Source: an uncultured Prevotella sp. (GTDB taxonomy: Bacteria > Bacteroidota > Bacteroidia > Bacteroidales > Bacteroidaceae). Taken from it: 64,000 nt of DNA. Both the position numbers and the translations under genes were made by a program. The notes below the pieces were generated by a model. It was not told the DNA's origin. It ran no database searches and saw nothing but the letters and a program-made list of their open reading frames with translations. Below are positions 26,785 through 48,222 of the stretch, piece by piece. Numbering within the stretch: position 1 is the stretch's first letter; every line of letters starts with the position of its first letter. The stretch is from the NCBI GenBank assembly GCA_947164965.1, contig CAMUYR010000014.1:1-64000 (forward strand), in the 5' to 3' direction.

Positions 26785-26953
26785 TTTGTGACTTTTGGAA
26801 TTTGTGACATTAAGGATGTTTCAATATGCAGAACGAAGAAAAAGTAGTATTAGAATTATATAATATTATAATATTATATAATTTATATAATAGCGGTGAA
26901 TAGAATTTGTGTATGGGAATGTGCTTAATGTCACAAATTCCCATTGTCACAAA
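26785..26953. repeat. Inverted repeat (30-bp arms) around an AT-rich palindrome
   Basis: The arms are 26785-26814 (TTTGTGACTTTTGGAATTTG and on) and 26924-26953. The inner 18 bp (GGAATTTGTGACATTAAG) are inverted perfectly, and the outer 8 match after a 4-base mismatch. The centre is nearly pure A/T (TATAATATTATAATATTATA). The right arm runs into tilS and supplies its last codons and stop. The structure resembles a small non-coding insertion element or a large terminator. Confidence 0.75.
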
Positions 26954-28256
26954 GTCCAATCTCCAGCACTTCTTTTGTCTGGTCAGAAACAGCAACACGA
27001 CTATCGGTTCTCAAGCCGACGGCCCAAACGATAACTCCCTGAGAATCAACAACAACCAGCTGCCGACGCTTCTCAAAAACAGTCATCTTGCAATCGGTCA
27101 TCAGATCGCTTAACAACTTGCGGCCCGACATACCATAGGGTATCATCCAGTCACCCTCTTCTACCCCTCTGACGGTCAAAGGAAAAGTTACTTTTGCAGC
27201 ATCAAGCGTGGCTATATAAGGCATTTTCGACACGTAAACAGCACATTTACGCACCCTAAACAGCATGTTTTCATCCAAACGATACGTACCTTCCTCGGGA
27301 ACGATATTACGTTTCAAAGGCTTTGATATTGCTTCAACGATCAAGCGAGAACGGTCCTTCAATACTTCATAGCCCGAAGCAGAACTGACGATTCTACCGC
27401 TCTCGGCATCCATAATCTGACGCACCTGACTGCCGTTGAAACCGTAGTTTTTAAGCCATTCATAGACGATATATTCACTTGAACCGTATTTTTCTAACTC
27501 TCTAATTTCTAGTATATTACTATTTCTATATTTATCGACAATAGTATCCAATACCGTCTGTGCTTCGCCAACGTTCTCCGTCATCCGCTGAATATTCTCC
27601 GAAACGGCTGGATTGAGTTCGCGAAGCAAAGGGAGCACCTGTAATCGAATCCTATTTCGTTGCACGTCAGCCTCCAAATTGGTGCTGTCCGTGACATATT
27701 TCTGCCCTCTTTTTACCAAAAAATCCTCAATTTCCGCACGGGAAACGCACAAAAGCGGCCGCAAACATGTCACAGAGGGACGGTTCTTTTGTGACATTTG
27801 CGACTTCGGTTGAATGCCCATCAGCCCACGCAAGCCCGTACCACGCACCAGGTTCAGAAGCACCGTTTCTACCGAGTCGTCACTATGATGAGCCACACAG
27901 ACCCCAGCCGCACCCACATCTTTGCATAACTGGGCAAACCAGCTATAACGCAATTCACGGGCAGCCATCTCAATGCTAACCTTATGCAGTTCGGCGTATT
28001 CGTGCGTATCAAAATGAGCACGATGCAGTTCAACACCAAGCTTCTCGCACAGCTCCACACAAAACGCCTCGTCCCTATCCGATTCAGCGCCTCGTAGATG
28101 AAAATTACAATGGGCAACATGCACACGATAGCCCGCCTCATGCAACAACAAAAGCAAAGCAACACTATCTGCACCACCGCTTAAAGCAATAATATATAAA
28201 TCGCTAGTATTAAGCAGGTTATATTTCTTAATATACGCATCTATCTTACTCCACAT
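26931..28256 (-). CDS. tilS: tRNA(Ile)-lysidine synthetase
   Basis: The 441-residue protein has the PP-loop ALSGGADSVALLLLLHEAG, HCNFHLRGAESDRDEAF and VAHHSDDSVETVLLNLVRG, typical of TilS, plus the C-terminal TilS-C domain. It converts C34 of tRNA-Ile(CAU) to lysidine, an essential step. Between GLMGIQ and LRPLLCV lies an extra stretch (PKSQMSQKNRPSVTC) encoded by a palindromic repeat at 27767-27797. The final codons (LCDNGNL) come from the inverted repeat at the 3' end. It overlaps the upstream methyltransferase gene by 11 bp. Confidence 0.95.
   Translation of the reverse strand: MWSKIDAYIKKYNLLNTSDLYIIALSGGADSVALLLLLHEAGYRVHVAHCNFHLRGAESDRDEAFCVELCEKLGVELHRAHFDTHEYAELHKVSIEMAARELRYSWFAQLCKDVGAAGVCVAHHSDDSVETVLLNLVRGTGLRGLMGIQPKSQMSQKNRPSVTCLRPLLCVSRAEIEDFLVKRGQKYVTDSTNLEADVQRNRIRLQVLPLLRELNPAVSENIQRMTENVGEAQTVLDTIVDKYRNSNILEIRELEKYGSSEYIVYEWLKNYGFNGSQVRQIMDAESGRIVSSASGYEVLKDRSRLIVEAISKPLKRNIVPEEGTYRLDENMLFRVRKCAVYVSKMPYIATLDAAKVTFPLTVRGVEEGDWMIPYGMSGRKLLSDLMTDCKMTVFEKRRQLVVVDSQGVIVWAVGLRTDSRVAVSDQTKEVLEIGLCDNGNL
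27767..27797 (-). repeat. REP-like palindrome inserted in frame in tilS
   Basis: ATGTCACA ... TGTGACAT arms (8 bp) surround AAAGAACCGTCCCTC on the minus strand. The core AGAACCGTCCnTCTGTG is shared with the palindrome next to the RAYT gene at 48200-48222. It adds codons to a loop of TilS without breaking the frame. Confidence 0.8.
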
Positions 28257-47101: not shown

Positions 47102-48199
47102 ATGCCAAGGAGTAAAGAAGAAGCGCTGGCAGCAGGCGTGAAGATCAGAGAGACACAGCACAACATGAAGCGACGCAAGCCGTGGCACAATTACTATCAT
47201 AAGGGTACCTATATGCTGACGATGGTGGTTGAAGGAAGGAAGCCGGTGCTGGGGCGACTGATTATGCCCGCAGCTGACGCAGCGGGAATAGAGGCAGGAA
47301 AACCGGCGGGAGTAAAGACGGGAAAGACGGCGGGAGCAGCTACTCCCGCTGCGTCAGCTGCGGGCTCCTACATCGAACTGACGGCCCTCGGAAGAGCCAT
47401 CCGCGACGAAGAGATACGGAAAATCTCTACCATCTACAAGACGGTGAAGGTCTGGAAGCTCTGCATCATGCCCGATCATATCCACATGATAGTCAGAATA
47501 ACCGAAGACCTACCTGAGGGCAAGCATCTGGGGCATATCGTGGCAGGATTTAAGGGAGGCTGCTCTCGGGCGTGGTGGAGAATGAATATGCCCGCTGCTG
47601 ACGCAGCGGGCTCTTCTCCTCACTTGCCGGCGCTTTTCGAGAGTGGCTACAACGACCAGATTCTACTTGAAGAAGGGCAGCTCGACAATTGGAAGCACTA
47701 CCTTGACGACAACCCGCGGCGCCTGGCTATCAAACGGTTATGTCCCGACTTTTTCATAACCCTCAACTATGTCGACATTGCCGAATGGCATTGCCAGTTG
47801 GTAGGCAATAAATTCCTGCTGGACATCCCGCAGAAGGTGGCAGTTATTGTGCATAGTGCCTATACCGATAAAGACTATGCCGACTATTGCGAGAAATGGC
47901 TGGCATGCGGAGAGGCCGGTGGCGTATTGGTAAGTGCCGCTATCGCAATCCGCGAGAAAGAGGTTATGCGCGAAGCCATGGACAGAGGCTATCGTATCAT
48001 CCTCGTCAGGGAGAACGGCTTTCCTCCCTTGTACAAGCCATCCGGTGAATCCTTTGATGCTTGTTCTGATGGCCGTCTATTACAGGTCAGCCCTTGGCAA
48101 TACCACATGGCGCGTCGCTGTATCTCCCGTGAGCAATGCCTGATGCTGAACCGATTAGTAGAAGATATTGTAAAATATATTCCTATTGAGATCCGTTGA
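47102..48199 (+). CDS. REP-associated tyrosine transposase (RAYT) with a C-terminal Rossmann-like domain
   Basis: The 365-residue protein has the Y1 (HUH) transposase fold in its first half: NYYHKGTYMLTMVVEGRKPV, then CIMPDHIHMIVRI with the His-x-His metal site, and SGYNDQIL with the probable catalytic Tyr. Two stretches (MPAADAAG... near residue 55-90 and again near residue 163) are encoded by palindromic repeats and look like in-frame insertions. The C-terminal about 140 residues (GVLVSAAIAIREKEVMREAM, RGYRIILVRENGFPPLYK) resemble a DprA/LOG-like Rossmann domain, by inference. RAYTs nick single-stranded REP hairpins and spread them. A REP-like palindrome follows the stop. Confidence 0.85.
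   Translation: MPRSKEEALAAGVKIRETQHNMKRRKPWHNYYHKGTYMLTMVVEGRKPVLGRLIMPAADAAGIEAGKPAGVKTGKTAGAATPAASAAGSYIELTALGRAIRDEEIRKISTIYKTVKVWKLCIMPDHIHMIVRITEDLPEGKHLGHIVAGFKGGCSRAWWRMNMPAADAAGSSPHLPALFESGYNDQILLEEGQLDNWKHYLDDNPRRLAIKRLCPDFFITLNYVDIAEWHCQLVGNKFLLDIPQKVAVIVHSAYTDKDYADYCEKWLACGEAGGVLVSAAIAIREKEVMREAMDRGYRIILVRENGFPPLYKPSGESFDACSDGRLLQVSPWQYHMARRCISREQCLMLNRLVEDIVKYIPIEIR
47266..47365. repeat. Two inverted REP-like palindromes within the RAYT gene
   Basis: GCCCGCAGCTGACGCAGCGG (47266-47287, 22 bp in all) and its perfect reverse complement (47344-47365) enclose 56 bp. Each copy is itself an imperfect hairpin. They encode MPAADAAG and AATPAASAAG-type stretches within the transposase. Confidence 0.85.
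47590..47611. repeat. Third copy of the RAYT-internal palindrome
   Basis: GCCCGCTGC-TGAC-GCAGCGGGC is a perfect 9-bp stem with a 4-base loop, differing from the first copy by a few bases. It encodes a second MPAADAAG in frame. Confidence 0.85.
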
Positions 48200-48222
48200 C
48201 ACAGAAGAACCGTCCTTCTGTG
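48200..48222. repeat. REP-like palindrome downstream of the RAYT gene
   Basis: CACAGAAG-AACCGTC-CTTCTGTG (8-bp perfect arms) starts one base after the RAYT stop. It shares AGAACCGTCC and TCTGTG with the palindrome inside tilS at 27767-27797. Confidence 0.8.

Follow-up and report, generated by a model that had tools for sequence, protein, structure and literature searches.

RAYT-type enzymes are thought to spread short palindromes such as repetitive extragenic palindromes (REPs). In subclass 2.4 of the TnpA_REP transposases, which is abundant in Bacteroidetes and Cyanobacteria, REPs have been inserted into the tnpA_REP gene itself without breaking its frame, for the most part within a variable surface loop that separates the HuH and Tyr motifs (Quentin et al. 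2018; PMC6006769). Coding genes, DNA-repair and tRNA genes among them, can also contain in-frame REPs and Rickettsia palindromic elements (RPEs), and the sites of these elements are sometimes common to several species (PMC3733652).

The locus described here belongs to an uncultured Prevotella sp. (GCA_947164965.1; 3.8 Mb in 81 contigs). The window is a 64,000-nt stretch, positions 1 to 64,000 of the forward strand of contig CAMUYR010000014.1, and it contains a RAYT-like gene with the following features.

47102..48199, + strand: RAYT-like (Y1 HUH) gene with a DprA-like C-terminal domain; open ORF of 365 aa
47189..47740, + strand: HUH/Y1 domain, residues ~30-213, identified by invariant residues and PDB fold matches
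47264..47367, + strand: loop 1, residues ~55-88, with two palindromes in inverted orientation (REPIN-like)
47266..47287, + strand: palindrome copy 1, GCCCGCAGCTGACGCAGCGGGA; 20-nt core at 47267-47286
47344..47365, - strand: palindrome copy 2, exact reverse complement of copy 1; core at 47345-47364
47474-47485, + strand: HUH motif DHIH, residues 125-128
47590..47611, + strand: loop 2, residues ~163-170, between the HUH and Tyr motifs, with palindrome copy 3, GCCCGCTGCtgacGCAGCGGGC; core at 47591-47610
47699-47701, + strand: catalytic Tyr, Y200, in YLDDNP
47741..48181, + strand: predicted DprA-like (SLOG/Rossmann) domain, residues 214-360 (model pLDDT 93, fold matches)
48200..48222, + strand: hairpin CACAGAAGaaccgtcCTTCTGTG with loop GAACCGTC, adjoining the stop codon; a third repeat family, unrelated to the in-gene palindromes

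The reading that we favor, and regard as probable, is that this RAYT-DprA-like fusion gene carries three hairpins of its family's kind in two insertion-tolerant loops, as self-insertions that have been kept.

Residues H126, H128, Y200, N204 and P205 are invariant in an alignment of 50 homologues, and the protein has both the HUH motif and the single Tyr-xxx-NP motif that define RAYT/TnpA_REP. It scores 22.7 bits against Y1_Tnp of Pfam (cut-off 23) and 23.1 bits in the genome search, and its 34.8 bits against REP_Tyr_transpos of NCBIfam (NF047646) are under the cut-off of 80. The AlphaFold model of the 365-aa protein has a pLDDT of 87 and a pTM of 0.79; residues 60-85 are disordered and residues ~161-180 have lower scores, and these two stretches are the palindrome loops. 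A fold search with the whole model returned IS200/IS605 transposases (ISDra2, IS608 TnpA) and the E. coli RAYT, followed by DprA. The HUH/Y1 fold is matched by PDB 2xm3 (E 3e-6) and 4er8 (rmsd 3.1). When the C-terminal domain alone was searched against PDB, ranks 1-14 were all DprA or the DprA-like ShosA (best E 3e-4, prob 1.00), and a profile search of PDB sequences found DprA weakly (E 0.037); at the Pfam level the domain has no sequence match to DprA. By its motifs and modelled fold, the gene product is a predicted TnpA_REP/RAYT-type HUH single-strand nuclease fused to a DprA-like domain, and the model allows the C-terminal half to be called DprA-like with confidence. The original prediction had named a RAYT with a DprA/LOG-like Rossmann C-terminal half. 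The motif residues and fold matches agree with the former, and the fold matches, together with the weak profile match, make the latter right at the level of fold. The gene had been placed at 47102-48222; its start holds, but the ORF closes at 48199 and the remainder is the separate hairpin past the stop codon. PADLOC gave no significant match to a defence system (DrmA, E 0.041). An assembly artefact is unlikely, because the isolate chromosome of Prevotella communis E15-14 (L114) has the same kind of gene with hairpins inside it.

The three palindromes leave the reading frame unbroken and encode the peptides MPAADAAG (copy 1), TPAASAAG (copy 2) and MPAADAAG (copy 3). Copies 1 and 2 are perfect inverted repeats of each other over 22 bp and together span 100 nt (47266-47365; called as an inverted repeat of 26 nt at 96%). 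Taken alone, each of them has one mispaired position (7/8 pairs), and copy 3 folds into a perfect 9-bp stem with the 4-nt loop TGAC. Loop 1 as a whole is predicted to form a single long hairpin of -65 kcal/mol as RNA and -39 kcal/mol as DNA. At 3 mismatches, 0.01 copies are expected by chance in the window, compared with the three that are present. Three in-frame palindromes of 20-22 nt, a perfect inverted pair about 100 bp across and added loops of the MPAADAAG type had all been read from the DNA beforehand, and the coordinates and translations bear them out. The elements have the size and shape of REPs, which are palindromic hairpins of 20-40 nt, and loop 1 (47266-47365) has the REPIN geometry of two inverted REPs with a short spacer. 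REPs typically occur in many, mainly extragenic copies; here the three exact copies are in the gene and related copies are mostly in genes. Replication as a unit, expected of a REPIN, was not seen, the pair in loop 1 being the sole one in the genome. The 5' GTAG or CGTC tag of REPs is absent, which counts against our reading.

The original prediction had treated a palindrome confined to this gene as evidence against itself, and the count came out literally that way: even at 3 mismatches, the 3.8-Mb assembly holds no further copy, all three being in the RAYT-like gene, and the exact palindrome is present in none of 300 other genomes of the family. The idea that the exact palindrome is a genome-wide repeat is hence rejected, and since this version has no further copy in the genome, its current mobility is only putative. 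It is the relatives that rescue the repeat idea despite the lone exact copies, as the HUH-Tyr loop of most long-loop homologues also bears hairpins, which are clade-specific and for the most part differ in sequence. The claim that the gene had been invaded by its own kind of repeat therefore stands in part: related genomes have in-frame hairpins of this type in further genes, but the exact palindrome is not repeated in the genome.

Of 60 related genomes, 21 have the RAYT family; a search of GTDB genomes yielded 471 relatives, of which 80 were kept. Most long-loop homologues have an 8-9 bp stem in the HUH-Tyr loop, and the clade-specific hairpins on the tree begin with TGTTGCTGT, TGTTGCGAC, TGCTGCAAC, GCTGCGAC, GCTGCGGC, CCCGCAGC and CCCTGCGT. 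A stem of at least 8 bp occurs in 67% of 51 long loops, compared with 0% of C-terminal controls of the same length. Random synonymous recoding of the same peptide in 97 genes gave a Fisher p of 3e-24 for the loops and of 1.0 for the C-terminal controls, a combined p that ignores relatedness; for loop 2 of the window gene alone, p was 0.027. That an Ala-rich loop was retained for the sake of its peptide, the palindrome being incidental, is rejected on this null and on hairpins that code for unrelated peptides. The only two differences between L018 and L141 in a 21-nt hairpin restore a pair, and one of them is nonsynonymous (Q to R). One homologue (L082) has five palindrome copies in its gene. 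Short-loop homologues have no internal hairpin, an absence that counts against our reading, and several of them have one 11-13 nt past the stop codon. The alignment went as the original claim needed, with homologues and near orthologues that have no palindrome, or a different one, in variable loops.

Among the close orthologues, loop 1 has no palindrome in P. communis L114, one in L116 and the inverted pair in the window gene. Loop 1 of the near relatives L079, L080 and L081 has no palindrome, so that gain rather than loss of the loop 1 palindromes would be the simpler reading. Loop 2 ends in a PAA(S/D)AAG hairpin in L114, L116 and the window gene, where it is the sole loop 2 element. The L114 genome also has several copies of another perfect palindrome, CCCTCTCTnnnnAGAGAGGG, which may be another REP family or terminators.

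The comparison of orthologues bears on the best-surviving alternative, namely that the RAYT is decayed or domesticated and the hairpins peculiar to it are remnants of an element that has lost its mobility. Such a state would fit the scarcity of the element, with three copies confined to the gene and a single related hairpin in the leucyl-tRNA synthetase (LeuRS) gene, as well as the borderline Pfam score; against it, the ORF is intact, the catalytic residues are all invariant, and stems differ between orthologues yet stay paired. We consider it unlikely.

Self-insertion by an element of the family's kind finds its counterpart in other genes, whose names outside the transposase were read from translations and not from a family search, except where a specific search was run. 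The window-type class, CCCGC(T/A)GnTTCTnC(A/T)GCGGG, lies in frame in LeuRS of the same genome, the only related hairpin there; it adds 7 residues relative to two orthologues, and the net difference from two others is zero. In relatives, this class is in frame in an RdgB/HAM1-like gene, a RecB-like gene (twice), an NRPS gene and others.

A paralogue in the same genome (G000:C41) carries a second class, type A, with the pattern TGTTGC-NNN-nnn-NNN-GCAACA. Among the initial 14 genomes, of which ten have the RAYT family and four are controls, all three inner pairs were Watson-Crick in 44 of 55 matches, with nine distinct stems; in 46 other relatives, 9 of 39 type A matches were fully paired, eight of them in four genomes. 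At least two type A palindromes occur in 10 of the 21 genomes with the RAYT family, compared with 2 of the 39 without it (p 2e-4). Two genomes have type A palindromes and no detected RAYT of the family, which counts against our reading. The window genome has six dispersed palindromic type A copies outside the paralogue, all in frame in genes. Of 38 dispersed copies fetched, about 23 are within ORFs of at least 200 aa; about 15 are intergenic or ambiguous, notably in one genome (G308), and count against our reading. The type A hairpins encode other amino acids in two frames (SVAVPQQQ, CCCDTATN), and their flanks are shared with dispersed copies.

Type A inserts are in frame in the TopoI, DegT, IspG and SufS genes. 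The orthologues in genus mates without the RAYT family are shorter: in TopoI, exactly 12 residues (36 nt) are missing in 4 of 4 orthologues, and the differences are 8-11 residues for DegT, 13 for IspG and 8-9 for SufS. The hairpin of PepP and that of an ABC gene stand in place of other sequence, the net length being unchanged, which simple insertion does not explain and which counts against our reading. In IspG, and likewise in PepP, two species differ in the stem variant that they carry at a common site, and in a RecB-like gene the two palindrome classes occupy almost the same position, one in each of two species (L243 in G360, L170 in G330). By sequence comparison, these coincidences suggest either that existing sites were overwritten or that the species have a tolerant site in common. 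In a genome in which no RAYT of the family was found (G332), an apparently decayed or altered hairpin is at the same site in the ABC transporter (L198, L230) and SufS (L192, L214) genes.

The spread over genes also weighs on a second alternative, which we judge improbable: that the hairpins are kept chiefly as cis-regulators of the gene, either as mRNA stems (the 104-nt loop 1 hairpin and the 9-bp loop 2 stem) or as an ssDNA site to which the enzyme would bind and so limit its own expression. The hairpin is kept while its sequence shifts, with a nonsynonymous compensatory change, the predicted fold of loop 1 is very stable, and several short-loop homologues have a hairpin just past the stop codon, all of which would suit such a role. 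But the same hairpin classes are found in many unrelated genes and are therefore not specific to control of the RAYT-like gene; in addition, the loop 1 copies vary from 0 to 2 among close orthologues, and several homologues have no hairpin at all. Least credible of the three is growth of low-complexity, disordered loops by slippage or local duplication with palindromes as by-products of an Ala/Gly/Pro-rich code, for although the loops are disordered in the model, those of L114 and L116 contain tandem repeats, and P-A-x-S-x-A-G codons are inherently near-palindromic, it is opposed by the synonymous-codon null with its clean C-terminal controls, by type A hairpins with other amino acids, two frames and flanks matching dispersed copies, and by clean empty sites in orthologues.

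Most simply, the gene's own copies would be self-insertions of its cognate element, kept as hairpins. The enzyme would recognise the hairpin in single-stranded form, for instance on the lagging-strand template, and would copy or move it by cleavage and strand transfer. Coding sites could persist because the elements leave two or more reading frames open and can enter in lengths divisible by three, and the DprA-like part may assist by binding ssDNA or loading RecA. A broader proposal, to which we give somewhat less than an even chance, is that RAYTs of this DprA-fused lineage drive REP families compatible with coding sequence in Prevotella, with at least two open frames, in-frame entry of ~36 nt into ordinary genes, in-place overwriting by new stems in different species (IspG, PepP, RecB-like) and an in-transposase copy as donor or safeguard.

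Further repeats are present in the genome. The hairpin at 48200-48222 was rejected as the gene's own REP, as it belongs to a different family and its loop GAACCGTC occurs elsewhere with other stems. Repeats with a conserved loop GAACCGTCC and varying stems are scattered over the genome (48200-48222; L253, L254, L255, L256). A second, ordinary RAYT-like gene (L250; G000:C4:190062-190421, - strand) has an open frame of 275 aa with MPNHVH and YIHQNP and scores 49 bits to Y1_Tnp; the GAACCGTCC repeats may belong to it. A TilS-like tRNA(Ile)-lysidine synthase gene (ORF 26931-28256) contains a member of a third palindrome family, ATGTCACAaaagaaccgtccctcTGTGACAT, in frame at 27767-27797 (- strand), and the palindrome-bearing loop of that protein is 5 residues longer than in PDB 3a2k.

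How REPs spread and how REPs and RAYTs are paired are unsettled in the field. Here the cognate hairpin can be read from the transposase gene, with dozens of natural variants, and the enzyme has a DprA-like ssDNA domain; together, these make substrate recognition and a possible DprA/RecA-type ssDNA route for REP movement directly testable. The locus is also a further bacterial example of short palindromes that reside in essential genes, among them those for aminoacyl-tRNA synthetases and topoisomerase. In the part of the literature covered, we found no paper on a DprA-fused RAYT family in Prevotella.

Compared with the E. coli RAYT (PDB 4er8) and IS200/IS605 TnpA, the window protein shares the HUH/Y1 fold and differs in having a DprA-like domain, long variable loops and hairpins inside the gene, theirs being only flanking. 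Its C-terminal domain has the fold of DprA, and differs from DprA in being fused to an HUH nuclease. With intragenic REPs and RPEs (PMC3733652), the locus has in common short palindromes in frame in coding genes; unlike those, its palindromes co-occur with a hairpin-bearing RAYT, are low in copy number, have other sequences and lack a GTAG/CGTC tag. Subclass 2.4 is similar in the in-frame hairpin between HuH and Tyr, as seen in copy 3 and in many homologues. It differs in its motifs, NH[IFV]H and YIxNNP, where the window protein has PDHIH and YLDDNP and its family DHxH and YLDDNP, and in being an HUH core of about 194 aa without a large C-terminal domain, compared with 365 aa including the DprA-like domain. 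The window gene has, in addition, a second loop with an inverted pair, and no GTRG double foot. The in-gene hairpins are not unprecedented: they extend the phenomenon reported in 2018 for subclass 2.4 and do not found a new one.
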